Shown piece by piece: positions 3,906 through 63,072 of a DNA stretch of 64,000 nucleotides; positions within the stretch are counted from its first letter, which is position 1; each line of letters begins with the position of its first letter. The stretch is from Calothrix sp. PCC 7103 (GTDB taxonomy: Bacteria; Cyanobacteriota; Cyanobacteriia; Cyanobacteriales; Nostocaceae). Both the position numbers and the translations under genes were made by a program. The DNA is taken from the NCBI RefSeq assembly GCF_000331305.1, contig NZ_KB217483.1, positions 477,534 to 541,533 of the forward strand. The letters run 5' to 3'. Below the pieces are notes generated by a model, which had not been told where the DNA came from, did not search any database, and saw only the letters and a list, made by a program, of their open reading frames with translations.

Positions 3906-3943
3906 TTTCATCCAAATTTCATTTAGATTGTTTAAACTAGTTT
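3906..3943 (+). promoter_or_regulatory. Direct-repeat promoter DR1 (no CDS downstream)
   Basis: TTTCAT at 3906-3911 and 3917-3922 (11-bp period), then TTTAAACTAG and a -10 TAGTTT at 3938-3943. It drives the predicted small RNA at 3950-4029. Confidence 0.65.
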
Positions 3944-3949
3944 TTAGCT

Positions 3950-4029
3950 AATAATGTTGATTTCCAAAGCATTATTGTTTCTAGTATACAGTTTTACTTT
4001 AAAACTTAGGCTGTATACTAGATTTTTTT
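3950..4029 (+). ncRNA. Predicted small RNA behind DR1
   Basis: The transcript would begin near 3950 with a 7-bp hairpin (AATAATG 3950-3956 with CATTATT 3970-3976). It ends in a 12-bp perfect stem (TCTAGTATACAG 3980-3991 with CTGTATACTAGA 4011-4022) followed by seven T. No ORF of any size is present. The promoter match and the intrinsic terminator 80 nt later are directly visible; that it is transcribed is inference. Confidence 0.55.
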
Positions 4030-4104
4030 ATGACATTTTTTATACTCAGATACTAGCAAATAAATTTGGCAGGCTGACCAATTAAAATTTAGAATATGCA
4101 TATA

Positions 4105-4121
4105 TTTCATCCAAATTTCAT
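4105..4121 (+). promoter_or_regulatory. Direct repeat DR2, probably decayed promoter
   Basis: TTTCAT at 4105-4110 and 4116-4121 but no -10 at the usual distance. The 40 nt upstream, including GGCAGGCTGACCAATTAAAA, match the promoter of the response regulator at 29907. This looks like a duplicated copy of that promoter. Confidence 0.45.
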
Positions 4122-4146
4122 TAATTTCTTTGTTATCGCTTCAGAA

Positions 4147-4184
4147 TTTCATCGTAATTTCATCCCCTTTTGACATACTAAATA
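4147..4184 (+). promoter_or_regulatory. Direct-repeat promoter DR3 for the P1B-ATPase operon
   Basis: TTTCAT at 4147-4152 and 4158-4163, TGACATAC, then TAAATA at 4179-4184. The leader to the ATPase gene is about 245 nt and holds a long hairpin (4234-4246 with 4266-4279) and a separate SmtB-like dyad. Confidence 0.7.
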
Positions 4185-4363
4185 TTACACCTCCCTCTTA
4201 TGACTCGGCTCTAAATCTAAATGTGGCTGCCCAGACCAGGTCAAGCACCAGTATGTCAAGCTGGGGCTTGAAATTGGTCAGTCATTAGTATGTAAATAAT
4301 TTGTATTAAATACTACTTAAAAACTCTAAATATTAACATTGAATTAAATGTTATGTTAAATAA

Positions 4364-4379
4364 TTGAACAACTGCTCAA
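4364..4379 (+). promoter_or_regulatory. Candidate ArsR/SmtB-family operator
   Basis: TGAACA (4365-4370), AC, TGCTCA (4373-4378), extended by flanking T and A into a 16-bp imperfect dyad. It resembles the TGAACA-NN-TGTTCA operators of SmtB, ZiaR and AztR-type zinc sensors and lies about 60 nt before a zinc-type ATPase gene. No ArsR-family gene is in the window. Confidence 0.5.
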
Positions 4380-4436
4380 CTAATCAAGTATGATTGAAGA
4401 GTAGCAGTGTCTCCGGTTCTGTAGAACAAATACGTT

Positions 4437-8347: not shown

Positions 8348-8385
8348 TTTCATCCTAATTTCATTTGAAGATGCAAAACTACAAA
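8348..8385 (+). promoter_or_regulatory. Direct-repeat promoter DR4 for the sigma factor gene
   Basis: TTTCAT at 8348-8353 and 8359-8364, -10 TACAAA at 8380-8385, 46 nt before the sigma factor ATG. Its presence puts a global regulator under the island's control. Confidence 0.7.
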
Positions 8386-9520: not shown

Positions 9521-9558
9521 TTTCATCTTGATTTCATCCTGAGATGTCATCCTAATAT
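9521..9558 (+). promoter_or_regulatory. Direct-repeat promoter DR5 facing a terminator
   Basis: TTTCAT at 9521-9526 and 9532-9537, TGTCATCC, and a consensus-like -10 TAATAT at 9553-9558. This is one of the best matches in the window, yet the next element is an intrinsic terminator only ~10 nt downstream. Confidence 0.7.
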
Positions 9559-9688: not shown

Positions 9689-9726
9689 TTTCATCTGAAT
9701 TTCATCAGTAGATATCACAATAAAGA
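9689..9726 (+). promoter_or_regulatory. Direct-repeat promoter DR6 for DUF2808 gene at 9777
   Basis: TTTCAT at 9689-9694 and 9700-9705, ATATCACAA, -10 TAAAGA at 9721-9726. Confidence 0.7.
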
Positions 9727-11841: not shown

Positions 11842-11858
11842 TTTCATTCTAATTTCAT
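11842..11858 (+). promoter_or_regulatory. Direct-repeat site DR7 for the SulP gene
   Basis: TTTCAT at 11842-11847 and 11853-11858; the -10 is weak (TAATGA at 11871 or TGATTA at 11874). The remaining 11586-11841 holds only AT-rich sequence and presumably the ZIP promoter. Confidence 0.6.
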
Positions 11859-14015: not shown

Positions 14016-14053
14016 TTTCATCCTAATTTCATCGCTACCTGTCATACTAGCCA
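14016..14053 (+). promoter_or_regulatory. Direct-repeat promoter DR8 for DUF2808 pair 1
   Basis: TTTCAT at 14016-14021 and 14027-14032, TGTCATAC, -10 region from 14048. Nearly identical in sequence to DR19 at 34427. The preceding 13756-14015 is AT-rich with nothing recognisable. Confidence 0.7.
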
Positions 14054-15262: not shown

Positions 15263-15288
15263 TTTCACTTTATATAGTAGACTAAAAA
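15263..15288 (+). promoter_or_regulatory. Degenerate direct-repeat promoter DR9 before small RNA
   Basis: Only one hexamer survives (TTTCAC 15263-15268), with ACTAAAAA (15281-15288) downstream. It is recognised by alignment with DR25 at 49053, whose downstream sequence is homologous. Confidence 0.4.
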
Positions 15289-15290
15289 AC

Positions 15291-15373
15291 GAAAACATCT
15301 AACTCGATTTTTCAGAGATACTAATTTTAGGATTTATAGCCATACTAATTTGTTAAGGCTATAAGTCTTTTTT
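15291..15373 (+). ncRNA. Predicted small RNA, family A, copy 1
   Basis: GAAAACATCT, CAGAGATACT and the following hairpin align with 49093-49177. The terminal stem (GATTTATAGCC 15331-15341 with GGCTATAAGTC 15357-15367, then six T) is retained although its sequence differs from the other copy, i.e. compensating changes. No ORF is conserved between the two. The rest of 15172-15555 shows no gene. Confidence 0.6.
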
Positions 15374-15555
15374 GTAGTTTCAGTACTTATGAATGCTAAT
15401 AGGCTTTTTCCTTAGATTACACCCATTGAAACATGTGAGGAAGAAATTGGATGTTTTTTTGCAATAACTTTTAAATTCATTTTATCTCTTAACAATGGCA
15501 AAGTCAGGCTGTTTTGTAAGCAGAAAAGTATAATACATCTTTCAAGCAGCTAAAA

Positions 15556-15593
15556 TTTCATCCAAATTTCATCAATGTCTGTCAATCTAAGTA
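15556..15593 (+). promoter_or_regulatory. Direct-repeat promoter DR10 for PacL-like ATPase
   Basis: TTTCAT at 15556-15561 and 15567-15572, TGTCAATC, -10 TAAGTA at 15588-15593, 35 nt before the ATG. Confidence 0.75.
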
Positions 15594-15627: not shown

Positions 15628-18495
15628 ATGAAACCTAAATTACCAGACTCTGCATCAAATACAGCCATACCTTGGCACTCCTTAGAAATTGAGAAAGCTT
15701 TGGAAGTACAGGGAAGTAACCCCGACACTGGATTGACTTCTAAGCAAACGTCGGAATTATTACATCAATACGGTACTAACGAATTACAGGAGTTTGGCGG
15801 TCGTAAACCTTTATCTATTTTGATAGACCAATTTACCAATATCATGCTTGTAATGCTGATGGCGGTAGCAGTAGTTTCAGCGATTCTAGATTTGCGCTCT
15901 GGTGATTTTCCTAAAGATGCAATCGCAATATCCTTTATTGTTATTCTTAACGGATTGCTTGGCTTTGTACAAGAAAGTCGTGCAGAAAAAGCTCTCGCAG
16001 CTCTCAAGCGTCTGAGTTCTCCTAGAGTCCGAGTTTTACGCGACAGCAAAATTTTTGAGTTGTCAGCAAAGGAATTAGTGCCAGGAGATATTGTATTTCT
16101 GGAAACAGGAATGCAAGCTGCTGCAGATGGTCGTTTGCTAGAAGCACAAAATTTACAGGTGATGGAAGCTGCTTTAACTGGGGAAGCAGAGGCAGTTCAT
16201 AAAGATTCTACTCTTGATTTACCTGAAGACGCTTCCTTGGGAGACCGTATAAATATGGTGTATCAAGGTACTGAGGTTGTTCAAGGACGGGCAAAAATGC
16301 TTGTGACTGCAACAGGGATGCAAACTGAACTTGGTAAAATTGCGGCTTTGCTCCAGTCTGTTGAAGCCCAACCAACCCCCTTACAACAGCGAATGTCACA
16401 GTTAGCAAACGTTTTAGTAATAAGTTCACTTGCATTAGTCGCTGTTGTGATTATAGGTGGTATTGTACGGACAGGTAGCTTTCAACACTTTGACCAATTA
16501 CTAAAAGTGTCTTTGAGTATGGCGGTGGCGGTTGTGCCAGAAGGTTTGCCTGCTGTAATTACGGTAACATTGGCAATTGGTACTCAGCGGATGGTACGTC
16601 ATCAAGCTTTAATTCGCAAACTACCAGCAGTTGAGACATTAGGCTCAGTTACTACGATTTGTTCAGATAAAACAGGTACGCTTACTCAAAACAAGATGGT
16701 TGTACAGCAAATTAATATATCTGGTAATACTATTAGGGTGACTGGAGATGGTTATGCTCCTACAGGGACATTTGAATTATCTACTTCCAATCAAGACAAA
16801 AATATTAAATCTATAGAACCAAAAGATTATCCAGAACTCGAACAACTATTATTTGCCTGTGTGCTTTGTAATGATGCTGTATTACAGAAAAAGCATTCAG
16901 AATGGGAAATTTTAGGAGACCCAACCGAGGGAGCGTTGTTATCTGTTGCAGGTAAAGCTGGTATGCAACAAGCAAAACTATTAAATCAGTTTACCCGCAT
17001 CGCAGAGTTTCCTTTTTCTTCTGAACGCAAACGCATGAGCGTTATTTGTCAAAGGCGCCAAACAGAATTGACACAAATTTTATCTGCCCAAGAGGAATAT
17101 CAGGCGCCTGACTCACAGTTAATTATGTTTACAAAAGGTTCGCCAGAGTTGATATTAGAGCTTTGCACATCTTATTACGTTGGTACAAAAAGCTCTTTTG
17201 CTCTGAATGATGAAAAACGTGCTTACATTCTTGAGCAAAATAACCAAATGGCAAGTCAAGGACTTCGAGTACTAGGATTTGCCTATAAACCTTTAGATAC
17301 TGTGCCTACTATATTATTAGACGAAAAAACAACCGAGCGAGAATTAATCTGGATTGGATTAGTCGGAATGCTTGATGCACCAAGACCAGAAGCAAAACAA
17401 GCTGTTGCTCAATGTCAGCAAGCAGGTATTCGCCCAATTATGATTACCGGAGACCACCAGTTAACAGCACAAGCTATTGCCTACGATTTAGGGATTGCCA
17501 AACCAGGTGATTTGATTCTTAGCGGTCAGGAATTGGAAAAACTCTCGGCGCCTGAATTAGAGCAGCAAGTTAACCAAGTAAGCATTTATGCTCGTGTTTC
17601 TCCTGAACATAAACTACGAATTGTCGAAGCATTGAAAAATCAAGGCAAATTAGTAGCGATGACTGGAGACGGTGTAAACGATGCACCAGCCCTAAAGCAA
17701 GCAAATATTGGTGTTGCAATGGGCATTACAGGAACTGATGTAAGCAAAGAAGCAAGTGATATGATACTACTTGACGATAACTTTGCAACTATTATTAGAG
17801 CTATAGAAGAAGGACGAGTAGTTTACGACAATATCCGTCGTTTTATTAAATACATATTAGGCAGCAATATTGGCGAAGTTTTGACAGTAGCTGCAGCTTC
17901 TCTGATTGGCTTAGGTGAAACTCCCCTCTCACCACTACAAATACTTTGGATGAATTTAGTAACCGATGGTTTACCTGCCTTAGCTTTGGCAATGGAATCT
18001 CCTGAACCTGACGTGATGAATCGTCCTCCTTACAACCCTCATGAAAGTATATTCGCACGAGGACTAGGATTTTATATCATTCGCATTGGGATTATCATTG
18101 CACTTATTACTATTGCTCTAATGGCGTGGGCTTATAACTATACTAAACAATCAGGCGACCCTGAAAGATGGAAAACGATGGTATTCACTACTTTGTGTCT
18201 AGCACAAATGGGTCATGCGCTGGCGATTCGTTCCAACACACAATTAACTATACAACTCAATCCGTTCTCCAATCCTTACCTACTTGCCGCGATTTCATTG
18301 ACAACTGTTTTACAGCTAATGTTAATATATGTGGCGCCACTGCGTAGCTTCTTTAACACTCACTTGTTAAGTTTGCCAGAACTAGCTATTTGTATTGGAT
18401 GCAGCGCTTTGGTATTTGTCTGGATTGAATTAGAAAAGTTATTTATTAAGCATTTTCGACAAGAGCGAAAGATAACTTACAAAATTTCATCCTAA
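15628..18495 (+). CDS. P2-type cation-transporting ATPase (PacL/Ca2+-ATPase-like)
   Basis: 955 residues. An N-terminal cation-ATPase domain (LEVQ...[19 protein letters not shown]) is followed by the actuator (LTGEAEAV; Ala in place of the usual TGES Ser), PEGLPAVIT in TM4, [27 protein letters not shown], and TM5-6 with NIGEV and [11 protein letters not shown]. The Glu/Asn/Asp ligands matching SERCA sites are all present, so Ca2+ or Mn2+ export is likely. A paralogue at 59890 carries a frameshift. DR10 precedes it; the TolC gene follows after 47 nt. Confidence 0.9.
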
Positions 18496-18501
18496 TATCA
18501 A
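18485..18501 (+). promoter_or_regulatory. Degenerate direct repeat DR11 before TolC gene
   Basis: TTTCAT at 18485-18490 and TATCAA at 18496-18501 overlap the end of the ATPase gene; the -10 is unclear. Confidence 0.4.
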
Positions 18502-20037: not shown

Positions 20038-20075
20038 TTTCATCCTAATTTCATTTTGATTAGTTACGATAGGTA
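20038..20075 (+). promoter_or_regulatory. Direct-repeat promoter DR12
   Basis: TTTCAT at 20038-20043 and 20049-20054, -10 TAGGTA at 20070-20075. The next 30 nt match the predicted small RNA start at 28658. The first clear CDS is the VKOR gene 220 nt on. Confidence 0.65.
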
Positions 20076-23267: not shown

Positions 23268-23284
23268 TTTCATCCTAATTTCAT
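23268..23284 (+). promoter_or_regulatory. Direct-repeat site DR13 for czcA-like gene
   Basis: TTTCAT at 23268-23273 and 23279-23284, with a possible third unit TTTGAG at 23290-23295. No -10 at the standard distance. It lies 64 nt before the ATG. Confidence 0.6.
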
Positions 23285-26500: not shown

Positions 26501-26538
26501 TTTCATCCTAATTTCATCCCTAAGTGTCATCCTAATAT
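26501..26538 (+). promoter_or_regulatory. Direct-repeat promoter DR14 for His-rich lipoprotein
   Basis: TTTCAT at 26501-26506 and 26512-26517, TGTCATCC, -10 TAATAT at 26533-26538: a near-ideal example of the module. Confidence 0.8.
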
Positions 26539-39303: not shown

Positions 39304-39341
39304 TTTCATATTGATTTCATCTTGACCTGTCAGAATTAAAA
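39304..39341 (+). promoter_or_regulatory. Direct-repeat promoter DR22 without CDS
   Basis: TTTCAT at 39304-39309 and 39315-39320, CTGTCAG, -10 TTAAAA at 39336-39341. The nearest CDS is 600 nt away, beyond a pseudogene. A perfect 11-bp stem (ACTTAGTTAAA 39363-39373 with TTTAACTAAGT 39386-39396) follows, without a T-tract. Confidence 0.55.
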
Positions 39342-39439
39342 TAGCTCAATCAGGTCCATTGCACTTAGTTAAATTTTATTACTACTTTAACTAAGTCTCA
39401 CTTACACCTACTTGGCAATTGGACTTGCTGAGTGTTTCT

Positions 39440-42494: not shown

Positions 42495-42603
42495 GATAGG
42501 TAATTCTTAATTTAATTACAGCAATATTGCGATTTTGTTACCAATTATACATTATAGCGACAAGGATATTTTAAGCCATCCTTGCCGCTAGTCTTCTAGA
42601 AAT

Positions 42604-42885
42604 CTATCTGGAAGGGCTTTGTTGATTGTTCATCATTTGATGTATTTTGCTGTCCATCTGCTGCGTATTACCCATCATTTTTTTACAACAAGGGCATCCT
42701 TTGTCTTCTGATTGTTGTTTAGTTGGGGAAGGTGGTGTTTGGCTAATCTGCTGTTCAGTTTTAGAGCTTGTAGTTGTATTCGCATTGGTAGCACGACTCT
42801 CTGCTCGACTGGGACTAGCAACTAATGTCAGAAGCGCAAAACTTGCTAAGGCGCCGACGAATATGCTTTTCATGTGTGTAGTCAT
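42604..42885 (-). CDS. Small secreted protein with CPCC motif
   Basis: 93 residues from ATG 42885. The frame extends to an ATG at 42942, but that lies inside the -10 of promoter M4, so it cannot be used. Signal peptide MTTHMKSIFVGALASFALLTLVASPSRA, a Thr/Ser/Gln-rich stretch, then CPCCKKMMGNTQQMDSKIHQMMNNQQ with Cys, Met and His suited to copper binding. A decayed paralogue lies at 39440. No family name known to me. Confidence 0.72.
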   Translation of the reverse strand: MTTHMKSIFVGALASFALLTLVASPSRAESRATNANTTTSSKTEQQISQTPPSPTKQQSEDKGCPCCKKMMGNTQQMDSKIHQMMNNQQSPSR

Positions 42886-42940
42886 ATGTTTTTTACTCTC
42901 TATCTTGTTTTCCGTCAGCTCTTCTTGACTGACTGAATCC

Positions 42941-42972
42941 ATGCTAAACTCTCAAGTCAGGTAGAGAGTCAA
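42941..42972 (-). promoter_or_regulatory. MerR-type promoter M4 for CPCC protein
   Basis: Minus strand TTGACT (42967-42972), CTCTAC-CTGACTT-GAGAG dyad, 20-bp spacer, -10 TAGCAT (42941-42946). Confidence 0.7.
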
Positions 42973-43121
42973 GAGATAAATATATAAATTTTACTTAACC
43001 TTATTTCGAGAAAATATTTAAAAAACTTAGGGTCAAGAGCTACGTTCTAATATCGGACGCGCTCCACGACAGATAGTCGGATACGTTTTTCGACACCAAC
43101 CTATAAAATAAAAATATTTTT

Positions 43122-43721
43122 CTAATTTATAGGCTTGTTACCAATTGCACAATAAATTGGATGCTTGGGATTCAATCCATCAAGGATTCTTACATTTATA
43201 AATTCAGAAGATAAAAGCAAATCTCTAACCACGTTAGGTTTCCACCGAAGGTAAACTTCATCGTTTTTATTACGGGCAGTAATTGCTACAGTTCCTTCTG
43301 GCTTTAATACGCGATATATCTCAGCCAAACCTTGAGTTGGCGGTTCCCAAAAATATATACAATTAATTGAATAAACAATGTCAAAGTAATTGTCCTCGAA
43401 TGGTAATGCCATCACATTACCAAGTTGAAGACTGACACGACCAGACTTAACAGCGTTCTGGTTTCGTTTTTGAGCTACTTTCTGCATAGTTTCAGAAAGT
43501 TCAATGCCGTAAATACACCCATGTATTGTTTTCTTCGCAGCATCAGCAATTGCTAAACCTGTTCCGAAACCGATTTCAAGCACTTTGCTCGTTTCGCTAA
43601 TATCGAGTAATGAGATAGTCCAATGATTATCCTCTCGATTATAAATATCCATCAAATAGCCGAGTATTCTACCGACTATCCCAGTTGGCTTTCCTGCTTG
43701 TGCCCGTCCACTTCGTGTCAT
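43122..43721 (-). CDS. Class I SAM-dependent methyltransferase
   Basis: 199 residues. Motif I VLEIGFGTGLAIAD, GIELSETMQKVAQKR, LPFEDNYFDIVYSINCIYFW and YRVLKPEGTVAITARNK give a complete Rossmann methyltransferase of UbiE/type-11 kind. Substrate unknown. The genes around it are copper-related; arsenic or thiol methylation is possible but has no specific support (no ArsM Cys set). Confidence 0.85.
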   Translation of the reverse strand: MTRSGRAQAGKPTGIVGRILGYLMDIYNREDNHWTISLLDISETSKVLEIGFGTGLAIADAAKKTIHGCIYGIELSETMQKVAQKRNQNAVKSGRVSLQLGNVMALPFEDNYFDIVYSINCIYFWEPPTQGLAEIYRVLKPEGTVAITARNKNDEVYLRWKPNVVRDLLLSSEFINVRILDGLNPKHPIYCAIGNKPIN

Positions 43722-43989
43722 AGCAGAGACTCTCTAGCTTTTAGTTGAAGATTATGTTAACGTTAAACCTTGTCCTTACCATCTACAAATAGAAGGAAGC
43801 TATTTGACATGAAGGATATATTAAAGTGATGGGTAGGTGATTCAGATTTAGCTGCATGGAAAGCCACAATTATCATAGAGCGAAAAGCTATATTGGTTAA
43901 GCAAAGCATTTTTGTAGCGACGTTTTGGATGGCTGTAGCAATGATGTAATAAACATTACAATTAAATACTGTTTGCAGATCAATTTGAA

Positions 43990-44403
43990 TTAATCTTTTT
44001 GAATAATTGGGCAAATTTTTGGTTCAGAATTGTCTATCACCACTTCCCATCCTGAAAGAAGACCTTGTAACTCCTGCTTAAAAATCAGGAGTTCTTGAAT
44101 TTGCTTCTCAATTACTGCGACTTTATCTTGCAATTTTTCTTTTATATGGTTACAAGGCAAATCACCTTGGTCATAAACTTCTAAAAGCTCTTTAATTTCT
44201 AACAAACTTAATCCAAGACTTTGCGCGCGCTTAATAAAGTGTAAGCGTTCATAAACATCAGAGTCGAATAATCTAAACCCACCCTCAGTTCTACCCGACG
44301 CTTTGAGTAACCCTAGCTCTTCGTAATAACGGATAGTTTTGATTGGTACACCCGTATTTTTAGCAACGGCGCCTATTTGTTTTGTTTTTTCTTGGAGTAA
44401 CAT
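43990..44403 (-). CDS. MerR-family metal-responsive regulator 2
   Basis: 137 residues from ATG 44403, which has AGAGG 8 nt upstream; the alternative ATG at 44424 sits too close to promoter M5. HTH IGAVAKNTGVPIKTIRYYEELGLLKASGRTEGGFRLF. Metal-loop cysteines LPCNH and KICPIIQKD match regulator 1, to which it is about 60% similar. It is preceded by a perfect dyad and so is probably autoregulated. The 269 nt between its end and the methyltransferase contain no supported gene. Confidence 0.92.
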   Translation of the reverse strand: MLLQEKTKQIGAVAKNTGVPIKTIRYYEELGLLKASGRTEGGFRLFDSDVYERLHFIKRAQSLGLSLLEIKELLEVYDQGDLPCNHIKEKLQDKVAVIEKQIQELLIFKQELQGLLSGWEVVIDNSEPKICPIIQKD

Positions 44404-44436
44404 GAAACATACCTCTAGAATCATTCCCTAATCTTT

Positions 44437-44468
44437 ATTTTAAACTCTCCAGTTAACTGGAGAGTCAA
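44437..44468 (-). promoter_or_regulatory. MerR-type promoter M5 for merR-2
   Basis: Minus strand TTGACT (44463-44468), perfect 22-bp palindrome 44444-44465 centred on GTTAAC, 20-bp spacer, -10 TAAAAT (44437-44442). Best operator in the set. Confidence 0.85.
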
Positions 44469-44498
44469 GACGAGTAGGGGAAACCCTTATTCATTGCA

Positions 44499-45023
44499 CT
44501 ACCTAACTTCCACAACACCGCGAAACATATTCATGCCGCAAGCAAAAGTGTACTGGCCTGGTTTCTGAGGTGTAAACTCAATTGGGGTAACTTGATTCAA
44601 ATCTAAATCTTGAGCAATGTGAAAATCGGGAAATACAACTTGTTCCAAGCAGCTACTTTTGTCACGACGTAAGAAGTTTAAGCGTACTGGTTTACCTGCA
44701 TCAACTACTACTCGACTTGGCTCGTAACCTCCATCTACTGTAATTGTAACTTCTTGAATGCCATCATGAGCTTCTGCATTCCGTGACTTTGGCTTACTCA
44801 ACAAAAACCACCATATTTCTAAACCAATTAATCCTAAACCAGAAGCTGTAACTGCTGCTTTCACCCATAGTGGTTGTTCAATACGTTGAAATTCACTCGT
44901 CTGTGATGTCGCAGAATTATGGGTTTCGTGAGGCATTTGTTGTGCTACCGCTCTGTTAGTAGCGACACCAAACAATAATCCCAAAGAAGCTATACTGCCA
45001 ATAATTGTCTTTCTATTTAACAT
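44499..45023 (-). CDS. Membrane-anchored cupredoxin-domain protein
   Basis: 174 residues from ATG 45023 (SD AAAGGGGG; an ATG 21 nt upstream is in frame). Signal/anchor at residues 1-30, a second TM (VKAAVTASGLGLIGLEIWWFLL), then a cupredoxin domain (ITVDGGYEPSRVVVDAGKPVRLNFLRRDKSSCLEQVVFPDF, FTPQKPGQYTFACGMNMFRGVVEV). The Cys, Cys and Met ligands of a copper site are visible. It follows CopA by 13 nt and likely receives or buffers exported copper. Confidence 0.85.
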   Translation of the reverse strand: MLNRKTIIGSIASLGLLFGVATNRAVAQQMPHETHNSATSQTSEFQRIEQPLWVKAAVTASGLGLIGLEIWWFLLSKPKSRNAEAHDGIQEVTITVDGGYEPSRVVVDAGKPVRLNFLRRDKSSCLEQVVFPDFHIAQDLDLNQVTPIEFTPQKPGQYTFACGMNMFRGVVEVR

Positions 45024-45036
45024 ATTTGCCCCCTTT

Positions 45037-47298
45037 TTATGCAATTACTTTGGGTCGGAAGTTACGTAGACGCAATGCATTTGTTAATACTGATACTGAA
45101 CTGAACGCCATCGCGGCGCCTGCAATAATTGGATTGAGCAACCAGCCGAAAATAGGGAAGAGAATACCAGCAGCAATCGGAATTCCTGCTACGTTGTAAA
45201 TGAAGGCAAAGAATAAATTCTGACGAATGTTGCGAATTGTTGCATTGCTAAGTTGAATTGCTGTCACTACACCTTGTAAATCACCAGAGATAAGCGTAAT
45301 GTCACTAGCAGCAATTGCTACATCTGTTCCTGTACCAATAGCTATACCCACATCAGCTTGAGCTAGTGCAGGTGCATCATTGATACCATCACCCACCATT
45401 GCAACAATTTTTCCTTCGCGTTGTAATTTCCTTACAGTGTCAGCTTTTTGGTCAGGGCGAACTTCTGCCAAAACACGCTTTATACCAACTTCACGGGCAA
45501 TAGTTTCTGCGGTACGGCGATTGTCTCCTGTAAGCATTACTACTTCTAAACCCAATTTTTGCAATGCTTTTATAGCTTGGGTAGATGTAGGTTTAACTGC
45601 ATCAGAAATCCCCATTAACCCTTGAATCTTACCATCTATCGCGATATAAATGGCGGTTTTACCGAGATACTCTAAGCGTTCTTTTTCTTTTTCCAAAACT
45701 TGAGTTTTTACATTTAACTCTGACATCCAGCGTTGCGTACCAATCTGTATTAGGTGGTTATCAACTATACCTTGTACACCACTACCTGCAATTGCTTCAA
45801 AATTTTCCACCGAAACCAACCCTACTTCTTGAGTTTGAGCATATCTCACAACCGCTTCTGCTAGTGGGTGTTCTGAGTTACGTTCAAGTGATGCTGCTAA
45901 TTGCAGTAATTTAATTTCATTACCGTTTGCGGTTCCATCAGTGGTAACAAAATCTGTAACTGTGGGTTTGCCTTGGGTAATAGTTCCTGTTTTATCTAGA
46001 ACAATTGTTTTGATTTTGTGTGCTAACTCCAAACTATCGGCGCCTTTAATCAAGATACCATTTTCGGCGCCTTTACCAGTTCCTACCATTACTGATGTTG
46101 GAGTTGCTAAACCCAGCGCACAAGGACAAGCGATAATCAAAACTCCCACTGTGGTAATCAAAGCCAGAGTCAGATTACCCATGATATTAAACCAAATCAT
46201 GAAAGTAAGCAGTGCGATTGCAATTACGGCAGGTACAAACCATCCTGTTACAGAGTCTGCTAATCTTTGGATAGGCGCCCTGCTTCCTTGAGCCTGTTGG
46301 ACAAGCTGAACAATCTGCGCCAACACTGTATCTTTACCTACTCGCGTTGCTTGAAATTTAAAGCTACCTGTTTTGTTAATAGTGGCGCCAATTACTTCAT
46401 CACCTTGTTGTTTTTTAACAGGTACACTTTCTCCTGTCACCATAGATTCATCGATAGTCGATGTGCCATCAACTACTTCACCATCAACAGGAATTTTCTC
46501 ACCAGGACGAACTAATATTACATCTCCAATTTGTACTTCTTCGATTGGAATATCTATTTCTTGCCCGTTGCGAATTAAACGCGCGGTTTTTGCTTGTAAA
46601 CCAATGAGTTTACGAATCGCTTCTCCAGTTTGTTTTTTCGCGCGACTTTCTAGAAGCTTTCCAACTAAAATCAAAGCAATAATAACTGCCGCTGCTTCAT
46701 AATATACATCGGGTCTTAAACCCTGAGAGATAAAAAAGTTTGGGAAAAAGGTAGGAAATAGCGAATAAATAAATGCCGCACTAGTGCCTAATACAACAAG
46801 AGTATCCATAGTTGCCGCATGGCGTTTAAAAGCTTTCCACGCATTACTATAGAAAGATAAGCCGCACCAAAATTGAATGGGAATTGTTAGCACTAGTTGT
46901 AGCCAAGGGTTATGTAACCACATCGGAATGAAAGGTACATGTAATCCTGTCATCATTGGTATAGAACCAATAACAATTATCCCACTCAGAATACTTGCAA
47001 CAATTACTTTGCGGGTTAGTTCATTAGTTTCTTTTGATTGTCTACGTTTTTCGGCTTCATCTTGTTGTGCAGTCGGGTTTTGTTGTTGCAGTGGGTATGC
47101 AGAATAACCAGCTTCATCTACAGCTTGTTGGATAACTGTGACATCAGTTTTGCTTGGGTCATATTCTACTGTTGCTAGTTCGGCGCCAAAATTAACAATA
47201 CACTCGTTGACACCGTTTACTTCCCTAATTGCTTCTTCTATGCCTCGCGCGCAAGAAGCACAACTCATACCGCGTAGCTTTAAAGTCGTGTTCTCCAT
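45037..47298 (-). CDS. copA: Copper-exporting P1B-1 ATPase CopA
   Basis: 753 residues from ATG 47298, chosen because GGAGG lies 5 nt upstream (the GTG at 47310 is within the SD). One N-terminal HMA domain ([13 protein letters not shown]), CPC in [55 protein letters not shown], and the TM8 copper signature [16 protein letters not shown]. It pumps Cu(I) out of the cytosol. Operon order on the minus strand is copZ-like, copA, cupredoxin, all downstream of M6. Confidence 0.96.
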
Positions 47299-47363
47299 AT
47301 TTTCCTCCACTCAAAATATTGTGGGGTGGGCTTCAGATCGCCCGCCCTCATATAGTACAGCTA

Positions 47364-47739: not shown

Positions 47740-47777
47740 TTTCATCCTAATTTCATTTTTGCCTGAGAAACTGAGTA
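47740..47777 (+). promoter_or_regulatory. Direct-repeat promoter DR23 for His-rich lipoprotein
   Basis: TTTCAT at 47740-47745 and 47751-47756, -10 TGAGTA at 47772-47777. The ~190-nt leader contains a 22-codon hydrophobic frame (47887-47955) of doubtful reality. Confidence 0.65.
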
Positions 47778-47966: not shown

Positions 47967-48887
47967 ATGAAGCGTATTTTGACTGCACTTGCTATCACTT
48001 CAACTCTTGTTGTTACTGCTGGTTGTGCAAGCGAAGTAAACAGTAGGCAGACACCTAGTAGTAGTGCTACGACTGTTGCTGATGCTAATCCTCATTCTGG
48101 TCATAACATGGGTGATTCCAAAACTCCTGGGGCAGAAGAAAATCCTCATGGTGGTCATGGCGGTCATTCGGAGAACTCTAAATTGGAGCCTGCAAATGCT
48201 GTAGCTACATTGACTGTCCCGGCTAAAGTCACTAATAAGGCGCCTATCGCTCTAGCAATTGATGTAAAAGACAAGAAAGGTAAGCCAATTGCCAATTTCG
48301 ATAAATTCCAAGAAAAATTAATGCATTTGATAGTCGTTAGTGACGACCTTCAATCTTTTAATCATATCCATCCTACATATAAAGGAAACGGACGCTTTGA
48401 AGTTCAAGCCGATTTTCCACAGCCTGGAGGTTATACACTATTCAGTGATTACAAAGTAGCTGGTAAAGCCGAACAAGTGTCAACTTTAAAAGTTCAAGTT
48501 CCGGGTACAAGTTCTAATACATCAAAAATTGATTTAGCAACTACTAAAACTTTCGGTAATACAAAAGCCAATCTAAAAGTGTCTCAACCAACTATCAAAG
48601 CTGGACAAGAAGTACATTTAATTTTTAACTTATTAGATGCAGCCAGTAACCAACCACCTAAAGATTTACAAAATTACTTAGGTGAAAGAGGACACTTAGT
48701 TATCCTCAAACAATCATCACCGCTAACCGAAGCAGACTATATCCATGCTCATGCGATGAAAGATACTCCCCCAGGTGAGATTCATTTTATTACTAGTTTT
48801 CCCCAACCAGGTAAATATAAGATGTGGGGACAGTTTAATCGTAATGACAAGATTATCACTGCTGACTTCTGGGTTGATGTGCAATAG
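47967..48887 (+). CDS. His-rich lipoprotein with two beta domains
   Basis: 306 residues from ATG 47967 (GGAG 8 nt upstream). Lipobox VTAGC, His/Gly linker (HSGHNMGD...HGGHGGHSEN), then two similar beta domains, each with a His-containing centre (NHIHPTYKGNGRFEVQADFPQPGGY; YIHAHAMKDTPPGEIHFITSFPQPGKYKMWGQF). The second domain is closely related to the separate protein at 49909. Probably a periplasmic copper or zinc binder; the domain resembles YtkA/FixH-like folds but I cannot assign it firmly. Confidence 0.78.
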   Translation: MKRILTALAITSTLVVTAGCASEVNSRQTPSSSATTVADANPHSGHNMGDSKTPGAEENPHGGHGGHSENSKLEPANAVATLTVPAKVTNKAPIALAIDVKDKKGKPIANFDKFQEKLMHLIVVSDDLQSFNHIHPTYKGNGRFEVQADFPQPGGYTLFSDYKVAGKAEQVSTLKVQVPGTSSNTSKIDLATTKTFGNTKANLKVSQPTIKAGQEVHLIFNLLDAASNQPPKDLQNYLGERGHLVILKQSSPLTEADYIHAHAMKDTPPGEIHFITSFPQPGKYKMWGQFNRNDKIITADFWVDVQ

Positions 48888-48898
48888 TTGTGTTAGTT

Positions 48899-48936
48899 TT
48901 TCATCTTAATTTCATTTTGATTTACTAAAATAAATT
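48899..48936 (+). promoter_or_regulatory. Direct-repeat promoter DR24 before small RNA
   Basis: TTTCAT at 48899-48904 and 48910-48915, -10 TAAATT at 48931-48936. Confidence 0.65.
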
Positions 48937-48942
48937 ATAGAA

Positions 48943-49028
48943 ACGAATTCCTCATGTTTCGCCAAAACCACAGCTTTATAGGTGTAAACATATCTTTTGT
49001 ATGTTTATTACTATGAAGCTGTTTTTAT
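48943..49028 (+). ncRNA. Predicted small RNA, family B, copy 2
   Basis: Near its start it has TTCCTCATGTT (48948-48958) as at 28663 and 20087. A long hairpin (ACAGCTTTATAG 48970-48981 with CTATGAAGCTGT 49011-49022) ends in a run of T. No coding potential. Confidence 0.58.
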
Positions 49029-49052
49029 TAAAAACAAAATGAACTATAAAAA

Positions 49053-49090
49053 TTTCATCATGATTTCATTTTCATATAATAAACTAAAAG
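49053..49090 (+). promoter_or_regulatory. Direct-repeat promoter DR25 before small RNA
   Basis: TTTCAT at 49053-49058 and 49064-49069; -10 TAAAAG at 49085-49090, or TATAAT at 49075. Confidence 0.65.
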
Positions 49091-49092
49091 TT

Positions 49093-49177
49093 GAAAACAT
49101 CTGACTAGATTCTCAGAGATACTGTTTTTAGGCTTTTAGCTCTACTAATATGTTAGGGCTAGAAGCCTTTATTTATA
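49093..49177 (+). ncRNA. Predicted small RNA, family A, copy 2
   Basis: Homologous to 15291-15373 (GAAAACATCT, CAGAGATACT blocks). Terminal hairpin AGGCTTTTAGC (49130-49140) with GGCTAGAAGCCT (49157-49168) then TTTATTT; pairing is kept despite different arms. Confidence 0.62.
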
Positions 49178-49276
49178 TTGATTTATCCGCTTGAAATTAA
49201 ATGATAACTTCCAACACAGCCTACAAGAGAGTAAAACTGGCATCCTTAGCCTTTTGAAAAAATTTTTGTGCCCCTC

Positions 49277-49308
49277 TTGACTCTCCAGTTAGGTGGAGCA
49301 TTTAAAGT
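49277..49308 (+). promoter_or_regulatory. MerR-type promoter M7 for flavodoxin
   Basis: TTGACT (49277-49282), CTCTCCAGTTAGGTGGAG dyad, 20-bp spacer, -10 TAAAGT (49303-49308). Confidence 0.75.
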
Positions 49309-49383
49309 AGTTTGAAACGAAATTGAGTTATTGAATCATACACCTAACTCTACCTTTATCACGCTACTTAGCAAGGAGGAAAG

Positions 49384-49896
49384 ATGGCTCTTGTTGGCTT
49401 GTTTTACGGAACTCAAACAGGGAATACTCAAACAGAAGCCGAACTTATTCAGAAAGAGTTTGGTGGCGACAGTGTTGTTGATATCTACGATATTTCTAAA
49501 GTAGAGTCAAGCGATTTTCACGACTACAACTATATTATTATTGGTTGTCCTACCTGGAATGTCGGTGAATTGCAAGACGACTGGGATGATTTCTTTGACG
49601 AGCTAGACAATATAGACTTTAGCGGCAAGAAAGTTGCTTACTTTGGGGTTGGCGATCAAAATGGCTACCCTGACTCTTTTCAAGATGCAATAGGCATCTT
49701 AGAAGAAAGGATTTCAGAACTAGGGGGTAAAACCGTTGGTTATTGGCGAACTGAGGGTTATGATTTTACAGACTCGAAAGCATTACGCAATGGTAAGTTT
49801 GTAGGTCTAGCACTAGATGAAGATAACCAATCTGAGTTAACACAACAACGCATCAAAACTTGGGTTGCTCAGTTAAAACAGGAATTTAGATTGTAG
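49384..49896 (+). CDS. isiB: Long-chain flavodoxin
   Basis: 170 residues. The FMN phosphate loop is FYGTQTGNTQTEA, followed by GCPTWNVGELQDDW (aromatic stacking loop) and FGVGDQNGYPDSF; the ~20-residue insertion of long-chain flavodoxins (GYWRTEGYDFTDSKALRNGKFVGLALDEDNQ) is present. Flavodoxin replaces iron-sulfur ferredoxin in photosynthetic electron transfer under iron limitation. Here a MerR-type promoter precedes it, suggesting induction by the same metal that induces CopA. SD AAGGAGG is strong. Confidence 0.94.
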   Translation: MALVGLFYGTQTGNTQTEAELIQKEFGGDSVVDIYDISKVESSDFHDYNYIIIGCPTWNVGELQDDWDDFFDELDNIDFSGKKVAYFGVGDQNGYPDSFQDAIGILEERISELGGKTVGYWRTEGYDFTDSKALRNGKFVGLALDEDNQSELTQQRIKTWVAQLKQEFRL

Positions 49897-55070: not shown

Positions 55071-55108
55071 TTTCATCTTGATTTCATCGTGAGATGCGAA
55101 GCTAGTTA
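55071..55108 (+). promoter_or_regulatory. Direct-repeat promoter DR26 for DUF2808 set 3
   Basis: TTTCAT at 55071-55076 and 55082-55087, -10 TAGTTA at 55103-55108. Confidence 0.7.
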
Positions 55109-55671: not shown

Positions 55672-55709
55672 TTTCACCTTGATTTCATACTGGTCTGTCA
55701 AACTAATAA
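55672..55709 (+). promoter_or_regulatory. Direct-repeat promoter DR27 for DUF2808 type C gene
   Basis: TTTCAC at 55672-55677 and TTTCAT at 55683-55688, TGTCAAAC, -10 TAATAA at 55704-55709. Leader of ~210 nt without an obvious structure. Confidence 0.62.
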
Positions 55710-56558: not shown

Positions 56559-56596
56559 TTTCATCTTCATTTCATAATCAGCTATCACAATAATAA
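56559..56596 (+). promoter_or_regulatory. Direct-repeat promoter DR28 for DUF2808 type A gene
   Basis: TTTCAT at 56559-56564 and 56570-56575, ATCACAA, -10 TAATAA at 56591-56596. The ATCACAA variant is shared with DR6, which serves the other type A gene. Confidence 0.7.
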
Positions 56597-57455: not shown

Positions 57456-57493
57456 TTTCATCCTAATTTCATATTTAGTTGTAAAGATAATAA
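57456..57493 (+). promoter_or_regulatory. Direct-repeat promoter DR29 for SbnA-like gene
   Basis: TTTCAT at 57456-57461 and 57467-57472, -10 TAATAA at 57488-57493. Confidence 0.7.
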
Positions 57494-59631: not shown

Positions 59632-59816
59632 TTTAAAATTGATTTATACGAATAATACCAGGGTTGCAACTCCATTTTTTCATAACTGTCGAAAAATTTT
59701 GCTGGCAGACAAATAAAAATATGACCTGATAATTATTTTTCACACAAATATATTTATATCATTAAATTTAAGATCATAAGCATTTTATAGTGTAAAAATT
59801 TTTTAAAGGGCTAATA

Positions 59817-59854
59817 TTTCATCCTGATTTCATCAAACTCTGTCAATCTGAGTA
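59817..59854 (+). promoter_or_regulatory. Direct-repeat promoter DR30 for second PacL-like gene
   Basis: TTTCAT at 59817-59822 and 59828-59833, TGTCAATC, -10 TGAGTA at 59849-59854. Close copy of DR10. Confidence 0.7.
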
Positions 59855-59889
59855 TAGAAGTAAATCTGTATGATAGTTAGCCACCCATT

Positions 59890-62821
59890 ATGAAATCTAA
59901 ATTATCTGACTCTGCATTGGTAAACACAACCATACCTTGGCACACCCTAGAAGTCGAAGAAGCTTTGAAAATGCAAGAAAGCAACTTTGATACAGGGTTG
60001 ACTTTTGAGCAAGCGTCGGAACGATTACAGCAATATGGAACTAACGAATTACAAGAGTTTGGCAGTCGCAAACCTTTATCTATATTGATAGAACAGTTTA
60101 CGAACATCATGCTAGTGATGCTCATAGCAGTAGCAGTAGTTTCAGCAATTTTAGATTTGCGCTCTGGCGATTTTCCTTTCATATGCAATCGCGATATCCT
60201 TTATTGTAATTCTCAATGGTTTACTTGGCTTTTTACAAGAAAGCCGCGCAGAAAAAGCCCTTGCTGCTCTCAAACGTCTTAGTTCTCCTAAAGTCCGAGT
60301 TGTACGCGACAGCAAAATATTTGAGGTGCCAGCAAAGGAACTGGCGCTTGGTGATATTATCTTTCTGGAAGCTGGAATGCAAGTAGCCGCAGATGGTCGT
60401 TTGCTATCAGCCCAAAATTTGCAATTGATGGAGTCTGCTTTAACAGGGGAAGCACAGGCAGTTCATAAAGACTCTACTCTTCATTTACCTGAAAATGCTT
60501 CCTTGGGAGACCGTATAAATATGGTGTATCAAGGCACTGAAGTTGTCCAAGGTCGAGCAAAAGTGCTTGTTACAGCTACAGGAATGCAAACTGAACTGGG
60601 TAAAATTGCTACTTTACTCCAGTCTGTTGAAGCGGAACCAACCCCTTTACAACAACGAATGGCACAGCTAGCAAATGTTTTGGTTGCAGGTTCGCTTGGG
60701 TTGGTGGCTGTTGTAATTATCGCTGGTATTTTACAGACAGGTAGTTTTAAATACTTTGAACAATTGTTAGAAGTTTCTTTGAGTATGGCTGTAGCGGTTG
60801 TACCGGAAGGTTTACCTGCTGTAATTACAGTGACTTTAGCAATTGGTACTCAACGGATGGTACGTCACCAAGCATTAATTCGCAAATTACCAGCAGTTGA
60901 GACATTAGGCTCAGTTACTACCATTTGCTCAGATAAAACAGGCACGCTTACTCAAAACAAGATGGTTGTACAGTCGATTAACGTACCTGGTTATATTGTT
61001 AGGGTAACTGGAGAAGGTTATTCTCCTACTGGAACATTTGAATTACATACTAGCTATGCTGTAGAACGCAATCCAGAATCCAATCTTAACCAAACCGTTA
61101 CACCGATAAAACCACAAAATTATCCAGAACTTGAACTACTGTTACTTGCCTGTGTACTTTGCAATGATGCTGTATTACAGAAAAAGCATTCAGAATGGGA
61201 AATTTTGGGAGACCCAACTGAGGGAGCATTATTATCTGTTGCTGGTAAAGCTGGTATACAACAAACAAAGCTGCTTTCGCAGTTCAACCGTGTAGCCGAG
61301 TTTCCTTTTTCTTCTGAGCGCAAACGGATGAGTGCTATTTGTCAGAGGCGCCTGAAAGAGGAGATAACACAAATATTTTCGCTGGATTCTTCACACCTGG
61401 CGCCTGACTCTCAACTACTGATGTTTACAAAAGGTTCGCCAGAGTTAGTTTTAGAACTTTGCACGTATTATAATGATGCTTCTGATACTTTTACATCTCA
61501 AATACTAGATGACGGGATAAGTGATAACTTCCCAACCGCACCCCACACGAAACGCTCTTTTGCTCTAAATGCAGAAAAACGCGCTTATATTCTTGAACAA
61601 AATAACCAAATGGCGCGTCAAGGACTGCGAGTGCTGGGATTTGCCTATAAACTTTTAGATGTTGTACCGAAAGACGACGAAAAAACAACCGAGCGAGAAT
61701 TAGTCTGGTTAGGATTAGTTGGAATGCTGGACGCAGCACGACCAGAAGCAAAAGAAGCTGTTGCTCAGTGTCAACAAGCAGGCATCCGCCCAATTATGAT
61801 TACTGGAGACCACCAATTAACAGCACAAGCTGTTGCTTACGATTTAGGTATCGCAAAACCAGGTGACTTAGTTCTTAGCGGTCAGGACTTGGAAACACTT
61901 TCAACAGATGAACTAGAGCAACAAGTTAACCAAGTTAGTGTTTACGCGCGCGTCTCTCCCGAACACAAACTACGAATTGTCCAAGCATTAAAAAATCAAG
62001 GCAAATTGGTAGCGATGACTGGAGATGGTGTAAATGATGCCCCTGCTTTACGCTGTGCAAATATTGGCATTGCAATGGGTGTTACTGGCACTGATGTCAG
62101 CAAGGAAGCTAGTGATATGATACTGCTGGATGACAATTTTGCTACAATTGTTCGCGCAGTTAAAGAAGGACGGGTTGTTTACGATAATATCCGCCGCTTT
62201 ATTAAATATATTTTAGGTAGCAACATCGGTGAAGTTTTGACAGTAGCAGCAGCTCCCCTTATTGGTTTAGGCGGTGTTCCCCTCTCACCGCTGCAAATAC
62301 TTTGGATGAATCTTGTTACCGATGGGCTACCAGCTTTAGCTTTGGCAATGGAACCTCCTGAACCTAATGTGATGCGTCGTCCTCCCTACAACTCCCATGA
62401 GAGTATATTCGCACGTGGGCTAGGGTTTTATATTATCCGCATTGGTATTATTTTTGCAATTATCACTATTGCTCTGATGGTGTGGGCTTATAACTATACT
62501 CAACAGTCAGGCGACCCCGAAAGATGGAAAACAATGGTGTTTACAACTTTGTGCCTAGCACAGATGGGTCATGCGCTGGCAATTCGTTCTAACACGCAAT
62601 TAACTTTACAGTTGAATCCGTTCTCAAATCCTTACGTACTTGCCGCAGTTTCATTGACAACTATTTTACAACTAATGTTAATCTACGTTGCACCCTTACG
62701 TAGTTTCTTTAACACTCACTTGTTAAGTTTGCCTGAACTAGCCATATCTGTAGGATTTAGCGCTTTGGTATTTGTCTGGATTGAACTAGAAAAGTTATTT
62801 ATCAAGTATTTTCTACGGTAG
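59890..62821 (+). pseudogene. Second PacL-like P2 ATPase, interrupted by a +1 frameshift
   Basis: Residues 1-98 (to DLRSGDFP) follow the 15628 paralogue, then one extra base near 60178-60183 (CCTTTCATATGCA against CCTAAAGATGCA) shifts the frame; the first ORF stops at 60282. The correct frame continues unbroken ([25 protein letters not shown]...) to 62821 with [35 protein letters not shown] and NLVTDGLPA intact. An internal start could only give a protein without TM1-2. The rest is ~85% identical to the paralogue, so the lesion is recent or a sequencing error. Confidence 0.85.
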
Positions 62822-62839
62822 CAAAAACAATCGATGATA

Positions 62840-62877
62840 TTTCATCCTGATTTCATTTTTACCTGCCATGATAATTT
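62840..62877 (+). promoter_or_regulatory. Direct-repeat promoter DR31 before small RNA
   Basis: TTTCAT at 62840-62845 and 62851-62856, TGCCATGA, -10 TAATTT at 62872-62877. Confidence 0.68.
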
Positions 62878-62883
62878 ATAGCT

Positions 62884-62996
62884 CTGTAGACTCTTTGTTA
62901 AAAAATTGGCTTTGATAACTCCTCTAGCACCAATGGGGCAAAAGAGTCTAATGAGTTTTCCTTAAACATTATTTTTTAAGGAAAATTTAACTTTTT
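62884..62996 (+). ncRNA. Predicted structured small RNA
   Basis: Long-range stem TAGACTCTTTG (62887-62897) with CAAAAGAGTCTA (62939-62950) encloses a ~40-nt loop containing ACTCCTCTAGCACC, an anti-Shine-Dalgarno-like C/U-rich stretch. Terminator stem TTTTCCTTAAA (62956-62966) with TTTAAGGAAAA (62975-62985) is followed by a T-rich tail. No ORF. Confidence 0.6.
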
Positions 62997-63034
62997 CGTA
63001 GTTCATTATACAATTTTTCTTTAAAATCTAAAGA

Positions 63035-63072
63035 TTTCATCCTGATTTCATCAAACCCTGTCAAGCTTATCT
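63035..63072 (+). promoter_or_regulatory. Direct-repeat promoter DR32 for the two-component operon
   Basis: TTTCAT at 63035-63040 and 63046-63051, TGTCAAGC, -10 TTATCT at 63067-63072, 26 nt before the regulator ATG. Implies autoregulation. Confidence 0.75.

Follow-up and report, generated by a model that had tools for sequence, protein, structure and literature searches.

Why does a single short sequence, TTTCAT-N5-TTTCAT, occur 29 times, always on the same strand, within 64,000 nucleotides (nt) of the cyanobacterium Calothrix sp. PCC 7103 (the window; contig NZ_KB217483.1, forward-strand positions 477,534 to 541,533)? An original prediction, made from the letters of the sequence, had described the copies as the activator boxes of one large regulon, and an exact-pattern search of both strands reproduced all 29 of its coordinates and its assignment of every copy to the + strand. 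By chance, the exact box would be expected hardly at all (mean 0.04, maximum 1, in 100 dinucleotide shuffles of the window). Using a matrix built from the sites of other genomes, all 29 exact boxes scored above the maximum of 14.8 seen in 20 random windows, the lowest score being 20.9 for the box at 4105, and no site on the - strand of the window reached a score of 11. Among the copies that had been listed as imperfect, those at 18485 (score 21.7) and 55672 (37.6) stand, but the copy at 15263 does not reach 11; it aligns as a copy of the unit at 49053 in which 12 box bases have been lost. We consider it very likely that the sites are jointly explained as a CopR/RppA-box regulon with class II promoters, a subset of which would drive small RNAs (sRNAs). 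The computed evidence consists of site statistics, clustering, the association of the boxes with genes and RppA loci, a conserved promoter layout, covariation in the RNAs and a spacing between box and RNA that hardly varies.

The boxes are clustered and they face genes. The Calothrix genome comprises 11.58 Mb in 12 contigs, and the window corresponds to C12:477534-541533 of the 1.56-Mb contig C12. Genome-wide there are 48 exact sites, of which 31 lie in 70.6 kb (C12:470017-540584, the island), four lie in a chromosomal cop cluster (C7:4793832-4804870) and 13 are scattered and have off-consensus spacers; the reversed control gave six. A strict form of the box, TTTCATYNNRATTTCAT (spacer YNNRA), has 32 matches in this genome, 28 in the island and four in the cop cluster, and no reversed-control match. 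For all 29 exact boxes in the window the next open reading frame (ORF; mechanical calls of at least 90 amino acids) lies on the + strand, and 25 boxes are both within 400 bp of it and outside ORFs. Only one box falls inside an ORF (28/29 outside), as against about 80% of random positions in the window. Beyond the window, the next ORF is on the same strand for 156 of 175 boxes, on the opposite strand for 13 and absent for six, with nine boxes inside ORFs, locus redundancy being left uncorrected in these counts. Since boxes face genes, and since plasmids of Nostoc C052 and Brasilonema carry boxes on both strands, we conclude that confinement to one strand, which had been put forward as a property of the regulon, mirrors the co-orientation of the genes. 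Several - strand genes of the window have no box: ZIP 10884, methyltransferase 31636, and a methyltransferase/MerR/cupredoxin/HMA ATPase group at 41451-47310, which is perhaps under MerR-type control of its own.

A promoter cassette that was duplicated or mobile, leaving mostly non-functional copies, would also multiply such sites, and some units do look duplicated: the boxes at 14016 and 34427 both precede DUF2808 pairs and have similar flanks, and the unit at 49053 has its decayed counterpart at 15263. However, the flanks are mostly unrelated, with 28 of 29 window sites surviving the removal of flanks that are 60% alike, whereas box and -10 element are kept and the boxes face genes, so that we regard a largely inert cassette as extremely improbable. 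A comparison of footprints between matched flanks is weak, because the partners were picked as the best among many.

What follows the box is as regular as the box itself. We compared 153 sites (118 non-redundant sites from other genomes and 35 from Calothrix sp. PCC 7103), counting positions from the first base of the box. In the 118 sites from other genomes, the only conserved positions after the box are TG at 25-26, A29, C32 and T33, with a mild purine excess at 41-43; A29 is present in 112, T33 in 106 and TG in 82. The window boxes agree, with A29 in 28/29, T33 in 28/29 and TG in 19/29. The combination TG..A...T occurs at offset 25 in 70 of the 118 sites, and the next best offset has four. 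We conclude that TG(25-26), A29 and T33 are the predicted extended -10 (TGn NAnnnT, hexamer at 28-33), 10 nt past the second half-site.

The start site fits this placement. In the available text of PMC4890671, transcription of copM starts 26 nt before the start codon, the copM copy being unspecified; applied to the annotated copM start on the Synechocystis plasmid pSYSX (L036:6404, box at 6337), this distance puts the transcription start at box position 42. The -10 had originally been placed 16 nt after the second hexamer, at position 34, where it would sit 2-3 nt from the copM-derived start; TAnnnT begins there in only 3/153 sites (at position 33 in 18/153), and we therefore consider it misplaced by about 6 nt. 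Similarly, TGTCA, originally described as a separate element between box and -10, is the beginning of the predicted extended -10. A reading of TGTCA as a third half-site was dropped, since TG, A29 and T33 agree with an extended -10 and with where copM starts. One observation fits less well: the first base of the hexamer (position 28) is rarely T, TAnnnT starting there in 25/153 sites. A promoter and terminator scan of 48800-49400 returned solely part of a terminator, at 49155-49169, and no promoter at the boxes. PhoB-type boxes have an 11-bp period and replace the -35 element, and the proposal that the repeats are class II boxes of OmpR/PhoB type in place of a -35 proved right, the spacing to A29 and to T33 each being fixed in 28 of 29 window sites. 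Together with the copM start at position 42 in pSYSX, as derived from the available part of PMC4890671, this spacing makes class II activation by RppA/CopR a well-supported prediction.

Promoters, too, would show a constant distance to a conserved downstream element, and the island holds a sigma-factor gene with its own box (8348-8364, ahead of 8431), so that the sites might not be activator sites but promoters read by an alternative sigma factor, perhaps that of 8431. A pair of direct half-sites with an 11-bp period is, however, typical of a dimeric response regulator, and the product of 8431 is of the SigA/RpoD-like cyanobacterial type (TIGR02997), for which an extended -10 of this form is ordinary. 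Moreover, a matching layout is present at Synechocystis promoters that are reported to be under CopRS (PMC4284471). We find the sigma-factor explanation barely credible, and retain that of a response regulator acting at the -35 position.

Which regulator would this be? The sequences TTTCATCCTGATTTCAT and TTTCATCTTGGTTTCAT are boxes at the copM and copB genes of pSYSX (gene names assigned by gene order and literature passages), with a matching downstream element, which bears out the proposed connection of a TTTCAT repeat with CopR of Synechocystis. Direct binding of CopR to the copMRS and copBAC promoters is described in the passages seen of PMC4284471, and those of PMC4182526 place the CopR sequence TTCATN4-5TTCAT, within Synechocystis, only at the cop promoters, mntC and nrsRS/nrsBACD; in the sequences analysed here, 6 nt separate the TTCAT cores, as compared with N4-5 in that source. 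We conclude that, judged by sequence, the sites are CopR/RppA-type boxes. The chromosomal cluster of Calothrix encodes DUF305, HlyD, RND and P-type ATPase proteins and an RppA/RppB pair, part of which (DUF305, RppA, RppB, adaptor and RND) is shared with pSYSX.

A suitable regulator is encoded beside the boxes, as the original prediction had anticipated. The protein of 63098-63850 (+ strand) is an RppA/CopR-family response regulator (NF041734, 400.5 bits against a cut-off of 250) that is 83% identical to the chromosomal RppA, 62% to that of pSYSX, 83% to that of Nostoc C052 and 80% to that of Calothrix NIES-4105. It is followed by the 5′ part of a gene for an RppB-family histidine kinase (63777-64000, running beyond the window; L033:311-1783; NF041735, 709.6 bits), whose true start, from the alignment, is probably slightly later. 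The sensor residues C104, C110 and H120 are retained in all seven aligned kinases, CopS of pSYSX among them. Above the NF041734 cut-off there are four RppA-family regulators in the island and one in the cop cluster; with kinases, the two regions hold five regulators and three kinases above cut-off. The whole genome has eight NF041734 matches at E 1e-70, three of them beyond these regulators. Boxes precede regulators at 63035/62840, at 29846, at L032:5018 and at L034:5849, the layout of autoregulation.

The second regulator named in the original prediction, 29907-30653, is a less likely reader of the boxes. It is an orphan of the same family (NF041734, 320.4 bits) that has diverged: the segment SNVVAAQ(I/M/V)RLLRRKL, which we take to be the recognition helix, is retained in six of eight aligned regulators, whereas 29907 and a further orphan, L032:7518, have SCVVATQIRALRQKL. 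We prefer 63098, the best candidate for a putative activator, because the orphan 29907 has diverged and its DNA-binding domain departs from that of CopR where the sequence is otherwise conserved. No kinase gene follows either orphan, and L032:7518, which lies directly behind the kinase of L032:5193, has no exact box upstream. Both orphans (29907-30653 and L032:7518-8258) also have KS for KP in the K-P motif of the receiver, and may have a changed specificity or a modulating role.

It could be argued that RppA is a mere neighbour and that the box is read by another OmpR-family regulator, such as PhoB, RpaB or a foreign protein. PhoB-type boxes likewise have an 11-bp period and stand in for the -35, and the 63098 protein itself scores 184.9 bits with the PhoB model TIGR02154. 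That score falls short of the PhoB cut-off of 296.2, whereas the protein's own family gives 400.5, and CopR, of the same family, is reported on Synechocystis promoters that carry the box, in what is accessible of PMC4182526 and PMC4284471. The distribution of boxes, which cluster at RppA loci and track RppA in number, also speaks against another reader. In 64 cyanobacterial loci of RppA relatives (at least 56% identity) there are 112 boxes in 1.10 Mb and none in the reversed controls, with at least one box in 47 loci, as compared with no box in 0.20 Mb at 15 loci of distant regulators (38-46% identity, mostly other phyla). Across the 150 nearest genomes (Calothrix sp. PCC 7103 included), box number correlates with RppA number (Spearman 0.65; 0.41 after genome size; control 0.01). 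Some observations detract from the assignment to RppA: 17 of the 64 loci have no box in the DNA examined, none is present on plasmid pANL, whose RppA has 51% identity, a box lies within 400 nt upstream of the regulator match in only 15 of the 64 loci, and the correlation ignores phylogeny. We nevertheless regard a different reader as very improbable, and go on with RppA/CopR as the predicted activator.

The size of the regulon was thought to be new. About 30 predicted promoters in one island did hold up; the uniqueness did not. At least one strict box is present in 72 of 292 genomes phylum-wide and in 108 of the 150 nearest genomes, 16 of which have at least ten and eight of which, our genome included, have 20-55; the total for the 150 genomes is 576 strict boxes against 32 in controls. 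Counts within the genus are 55 (G293), 32, 32 (this genome), 29, 28, 3 and 0. Single plasmids also hold large sets of exact boxes: 32 in Calothrix PCC 7716, 28 in Calothrix NIES-4105, 24 in Brasilonema, 21 in Nostoc C052 and 14 in Scytonema NIES-4073, with smaller sets in N. carneum (9), Nostoc C057 (7) and pSYSX (2) and none in pANL. Since large sets occur in several genomes and plasmids, we conclude that a regulon this large recurs and is not peculiar to a single strain. Box arrangement varies elsewhere: L042:2528-2844 and L037:12242-12396 have arrays of 3-5 boxes about 73-81 bp apart, unlike the window, and TTTCAT runs of 11-bp period at G116:C43:1813-1862 and G387:C306:1821-1881 look like simple repeats and inflate the counts slightly.

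Several boxes seem to drive short RNAs rather than the adjacent protein gene. The boxes at 3906, 9521, 28614, 48899 and 62840 each have the next box 141-199 nt on, with a terminator-like hairpin between. Hairpins of -9 kcal/mol or lower, within 240 nt or before the next box, follow 10 of 31 window boxes as compared with 7 of 93 shuffled sequences. We do not count three of the ten as RNA candidates: at 14016 and 57456 the hairpin is inside the gene, and at 36241 it lies in the leader. The single-hairpin test was passed by 10 of 31 upstream members of tandem boxes (4/62 shuffled) and by 33 of 183 other boxes (40/366 shuffled); most members of family B, described below, fail it, probably because their outer stem encloses a second hairpin. 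We firmly predict RNAs behind the boxes at 39304, 62840, 28614 and 48899, and less firmly behind those at 3906, 9521 and 49053.

Two families of candidate sRNAs can be distinguished, and each was used to build a covariance model (R2 for family A; R1 for family B, built from the RNA alone without the box). Family A comprises, in the window, the candidates at 28655-28740 (R2 73.0 bits; box 28614-28630) and 48940-49029 (R2 83.9 bits, terminator free energy (ΔG) -25.9; box 48899-48915), both seeds of R2. In each, a 5′ hairpin whose loop carries UCCU is joined by a linker to a terminator that varies in sequence between loci while its pairing is kept, and the pattern box-N18-40-TCCTCATGT occurs in 8 of 150 genomes and not at all in the control. 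In an alignment of ten family-A sequences (A6), double changes affect 7 of 20 pairs, all of them in the terminator stem (7/12 terminator pairs), and the covariation score of 0.379, as compared with 0.183 for shuffled and at most 0.159 for slid alignments, was reached by none of 500 shuffles.

Family B is represented in the window by two RNAs. One, 62881-62961, is a seed of R1 (65 bits) and lies between the boxes at 62840-62856 and 63035-63051 upstream of rppA; other members, in Nostoc, Scytonema and elsewhere, are also upstream of rppA. The second, 39344-39438 (R1 38.9 bits, not a seed), is behind the box at 39304-39320, with over 600 nt between that box and the nearest likely gene downstream. 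In this family an inner hairpin is enclosed by a long stem that ends in U's. All six seeds contain AACUCCUC, and ACUCCUC occurs in 11 of the 23 matches found later. An alignment of six sequences (A5) gave double changes in 5 of 24 pairs and a score of 0.219 against 0.142 for shuffled alignments (0/500 shuffles), above the slid controls as well; L041, which has lost the terminator, was excluded from alignments A4 and A5, and L038 and L118 were dropped from A5 after aligning poorly in A4. The RNAs of the two families combine a conserved structure, compensatory changes and a terminator. In the 150 genomes, R1 has 23 matches in 15 genomes. All but one of these (G101) lie downstream of a box that is exact or has one mismatch, and the distance from the start of the box is 40-41 nt in 21 cases and 51 nt in one (20 in the loci first compared, 19 at 40-41 nt and one at 51, and two more at 40 nt on closer look). 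Seven of the 23 are identical to seeds, and 15 of the other 16 have the box. R2 has 17 matches, also in 15 genomes: an exact box stands at 40-41 nt in 12 and at 48 nt in one, a one-mismatch box at 41 nt in one, and three (30-34 bits) are boxless; nine of the 17 are identical to box-found seeds. All 13 matches of at least 50 bits have a box, exact at 40-41 nt in 12 and with one mismatch at 41 nt in the other. The stems pair from about box position 42 on, consistent with a start there; because the seeds were cut at position 42 following the copM prediction, where they begin cannot serve as separate support for the start site.

Several results weigh against this account of the RNAs. Since the box led to the seeds, and since their 5′ end was set at position 42, only matches not identical to seeds test the link; of 16 such R1 matches, six are near-identical copies of the 39304 RNA, and of eight such R2 matches, only three have an exact box at 41 nt (one of them already known from the TCCTCATGT search), with one box at 48 nt, one with a mismatch at 41 nt and none for the remaining three (30-34 bits). 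Phylum-wide, R1 matched 3 of 292 genomes, and two of these matches (G101 and G153) are boxless. Seven double-change pairs, the number in A6, also arose in 30 of 500 shuffles, and none of the A6 pairs concerned lies in the 5′ hairpin. Finally, UCCUC is missing from the second family-B RNA of the window, and the motif (as ACTCCTC in the DNA) is present in only 11 of the 23 matches.

The short RNAs might also be attenuated leaders, or remnants of tandem promoters, rather than free sRNAs. Five of them (3906, 9521, 28614, 48899 and 62840) do lie between two boxes ahead of a protein gene, and the leader behind the box at 20038-20054 keeps the 5′ hairpin sequence of family A (R2 E 0.003), with no terminator found before the VKOR gene at 20298. 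However, where boxes are serial the gene has its own box past the terminator, the 39304 RNA is remote from any likely gene, the pairs of the terminator stem covary while the sequence is replaced, and families A and B recur at other loci at an equal distance from the box. We judge leaders or remnants to be unlikely, and the short terminated RNAs to be probably trans-acting sRNAs. The MFLMFHK frame behind the boxes at 20038 and 28614 was also considered as a small ORF and rejected: it extends over 60 codons at 20038, 28 at 28614 and, from a later start, 20 at 48899, and its ends are unrelated, whereas the hairpins recur.

As for what the RNAs might do, they share with Yfr1 and Yfr10 a conserved UCCU motif, carried in Yfr10 by a loop atop a stem according to the sections seen of PMC6778093; UCCU(C) is present in family A and in the 11 family-B matches. 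Contact with the ppa target was lost when the UCCU of Yfr1/Yfr10 was altered, and the same sections warn that blocking of the Shine-Dalgarno sequence is perhaps less established in cyanobacteria (PMC6778093). The comparison covers the UCCU motif. Families A and B differ in that they follow a CopR-type box and have no Rfam match, with none in the window at gathering score and none up to E 5 in six loci.

These elements suggest the following mechanism. An RppB/CopS-type membrane kinase would sense periplasmic metal, most likely copper, and phosphorylate RppA 63098 and perhaps its paralogues, as the available extracts of PMC4284471 and PMC13421787 report for Synechocystis CopRS. The tandem TTTCAT half-sites, at the place of the -35 (about -41 to -25), would be bound by RppA dimers, which would recruit housekeeping RNA polymerase in class II fashion to the extended -10 (positions 25-33), with a start near position 42. 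Some 30 island promoters would be switched on together, serving rppA itself, pumps, P-type ATPases, thiol and redox enzymes, a porin, DUF2808 proteins and the sigma factor. The subset of boxes that drive short terminated RNAs would add a post-transcriptional arm, an action suggested by the UCCU(C) loops of family A and of about half of the family-B matches. We further propose, as somewhat more likely than not, that, in large-genome heterocystous cyanobacteria, CopR/RppA grew from a two-operon copper switch into a programme of at least 30 promoters, with at least two new sRNA families at a fixed distance from the box that silence mRNAs through exposed UCCUC loops in metal stress.

The Synechocystis CopRS regulon shares with the Calothrix island the box, extended -10 and spacing (at copM and copB), an RppA/RppB-family regulator and kinase, and DUF305, RND and adaptor targets. 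It differs in extent: the review table of CopR targets, in the part seen of PMC13421787, has only copMRS and copBAC, as compared with 31 sites in the island, whose targets go further to a sigma factor, a porin, DUF2808 proteins, an SbnA-like enzyme and candidate RNAs. NrsRS of Synechocystis (RppA/RppB) is also related, in that CopR of pSYSX carries the NCBI name RppA and, as far as PMC4182526 was available, a CopR-type sequence lies between nrsRS and nrsBACD; pigment genes are under RppA via Hik2 in the portion seen of PMC13421787. Box, regulator family and promoter class were thus already known. Among the open-access papers listed as matches, none concerned CopR-box sRNAs or a CopR regulon this large (subscription papers, the original CopRS paper included, lay outside this scope), and within it the sRNA output is new, while the size and spread of the regulon are absent from the accessible papers. 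In the E. coli Pho box, too, a direct repeat of 11-bp period takes the place of the -35, with about 10 nt between it and the -10; Calothrix differs in its TTTCAT half-site, its regulator family and its extended -10. The promoter code of box, extended -10 and start can be searched in any cyanobacterial genome, and would turn anonymous plasmid islands into a defined stress regulon; co-regulation suggests roles for DUF2808, SbnA-like and other genes, and sRNAs are proposed under a metal-sensing two-component system in cyanobacteria.

The remaining + strand features of the window are as follows, with protein families from Pfam. At its 5′ end, the box at 3906-3922 precedes a short terminated RNA candidate (hairpin end 4022, terminator ΔG -17.4; weak R2 match 3959-4029, E 0.008) upstream of the boxes at 4105-4121, which has a poor downstream element and may be non-functional, and 4147-4163, ahead of P-type ATPase 4437 and then cation efflux and DAGK genes. 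A second short terminated RNA candidate (hairpin end 9607) follows the box at 9521-9537. Genes of efflux and transport follow the boxes at 11842-11858 (SulP permease 11918), 15556-15572 (cation P-type ATPase 15628), 18485-18501 (imperfect; outer-membrane efflux protein 18543), 23268-23284 (RND pump 23348) and 59817-59833 (a cation P-type ATPase region, 59890-62821). The last of these comprises two ORFs, 59890-60282 and 60326-62821, possibly through a frameshift or a split gene. Behind the box at 20038, VKOR 20298 is followed by peroxiredoxin and metallo-β-lactamase-type (MBL) genes. Further boxes precede unknown proteins 26547 (box 26501-26517) and 55160 (55071-55087), CemA-family protein 28789 (28755-28771), the orphan regulator 29907 (29846-29862), DUF218 30772 (30643-30659), the CopM-like DUF305 protein 36377 (36241-36257), SLH/OprB porin 37333 (37244-37260), hypothetical 47949 (47740-47756) and the SbnA-like pyridoxal-phosphate enzyme 57609, then EamA 58723 (57456-57472).

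The box at 49053-49069 is followed by a terminated RNA candidate (hairpin end 49168) and then by flavodoxin 49384 and HlyD/RND genes; its decayed paralogue (15263-15400, box remnant 15263-15279), identified by alignment, retains the terminator hairpin. DUF2808 proteins follow the boxes at 9689-9705 (9777), 14016-14032 (pair at 14108), 34427-34443 (pair at 34521), 55672-55688 (one mismatch; 55924) and 56559-56575 (56641). There are seven such proteins in the window (9777, 14108, 14677, 34521, 35074, 55924 and 56641), five encoded by the first gene after a box and two by the second gene of a pair.

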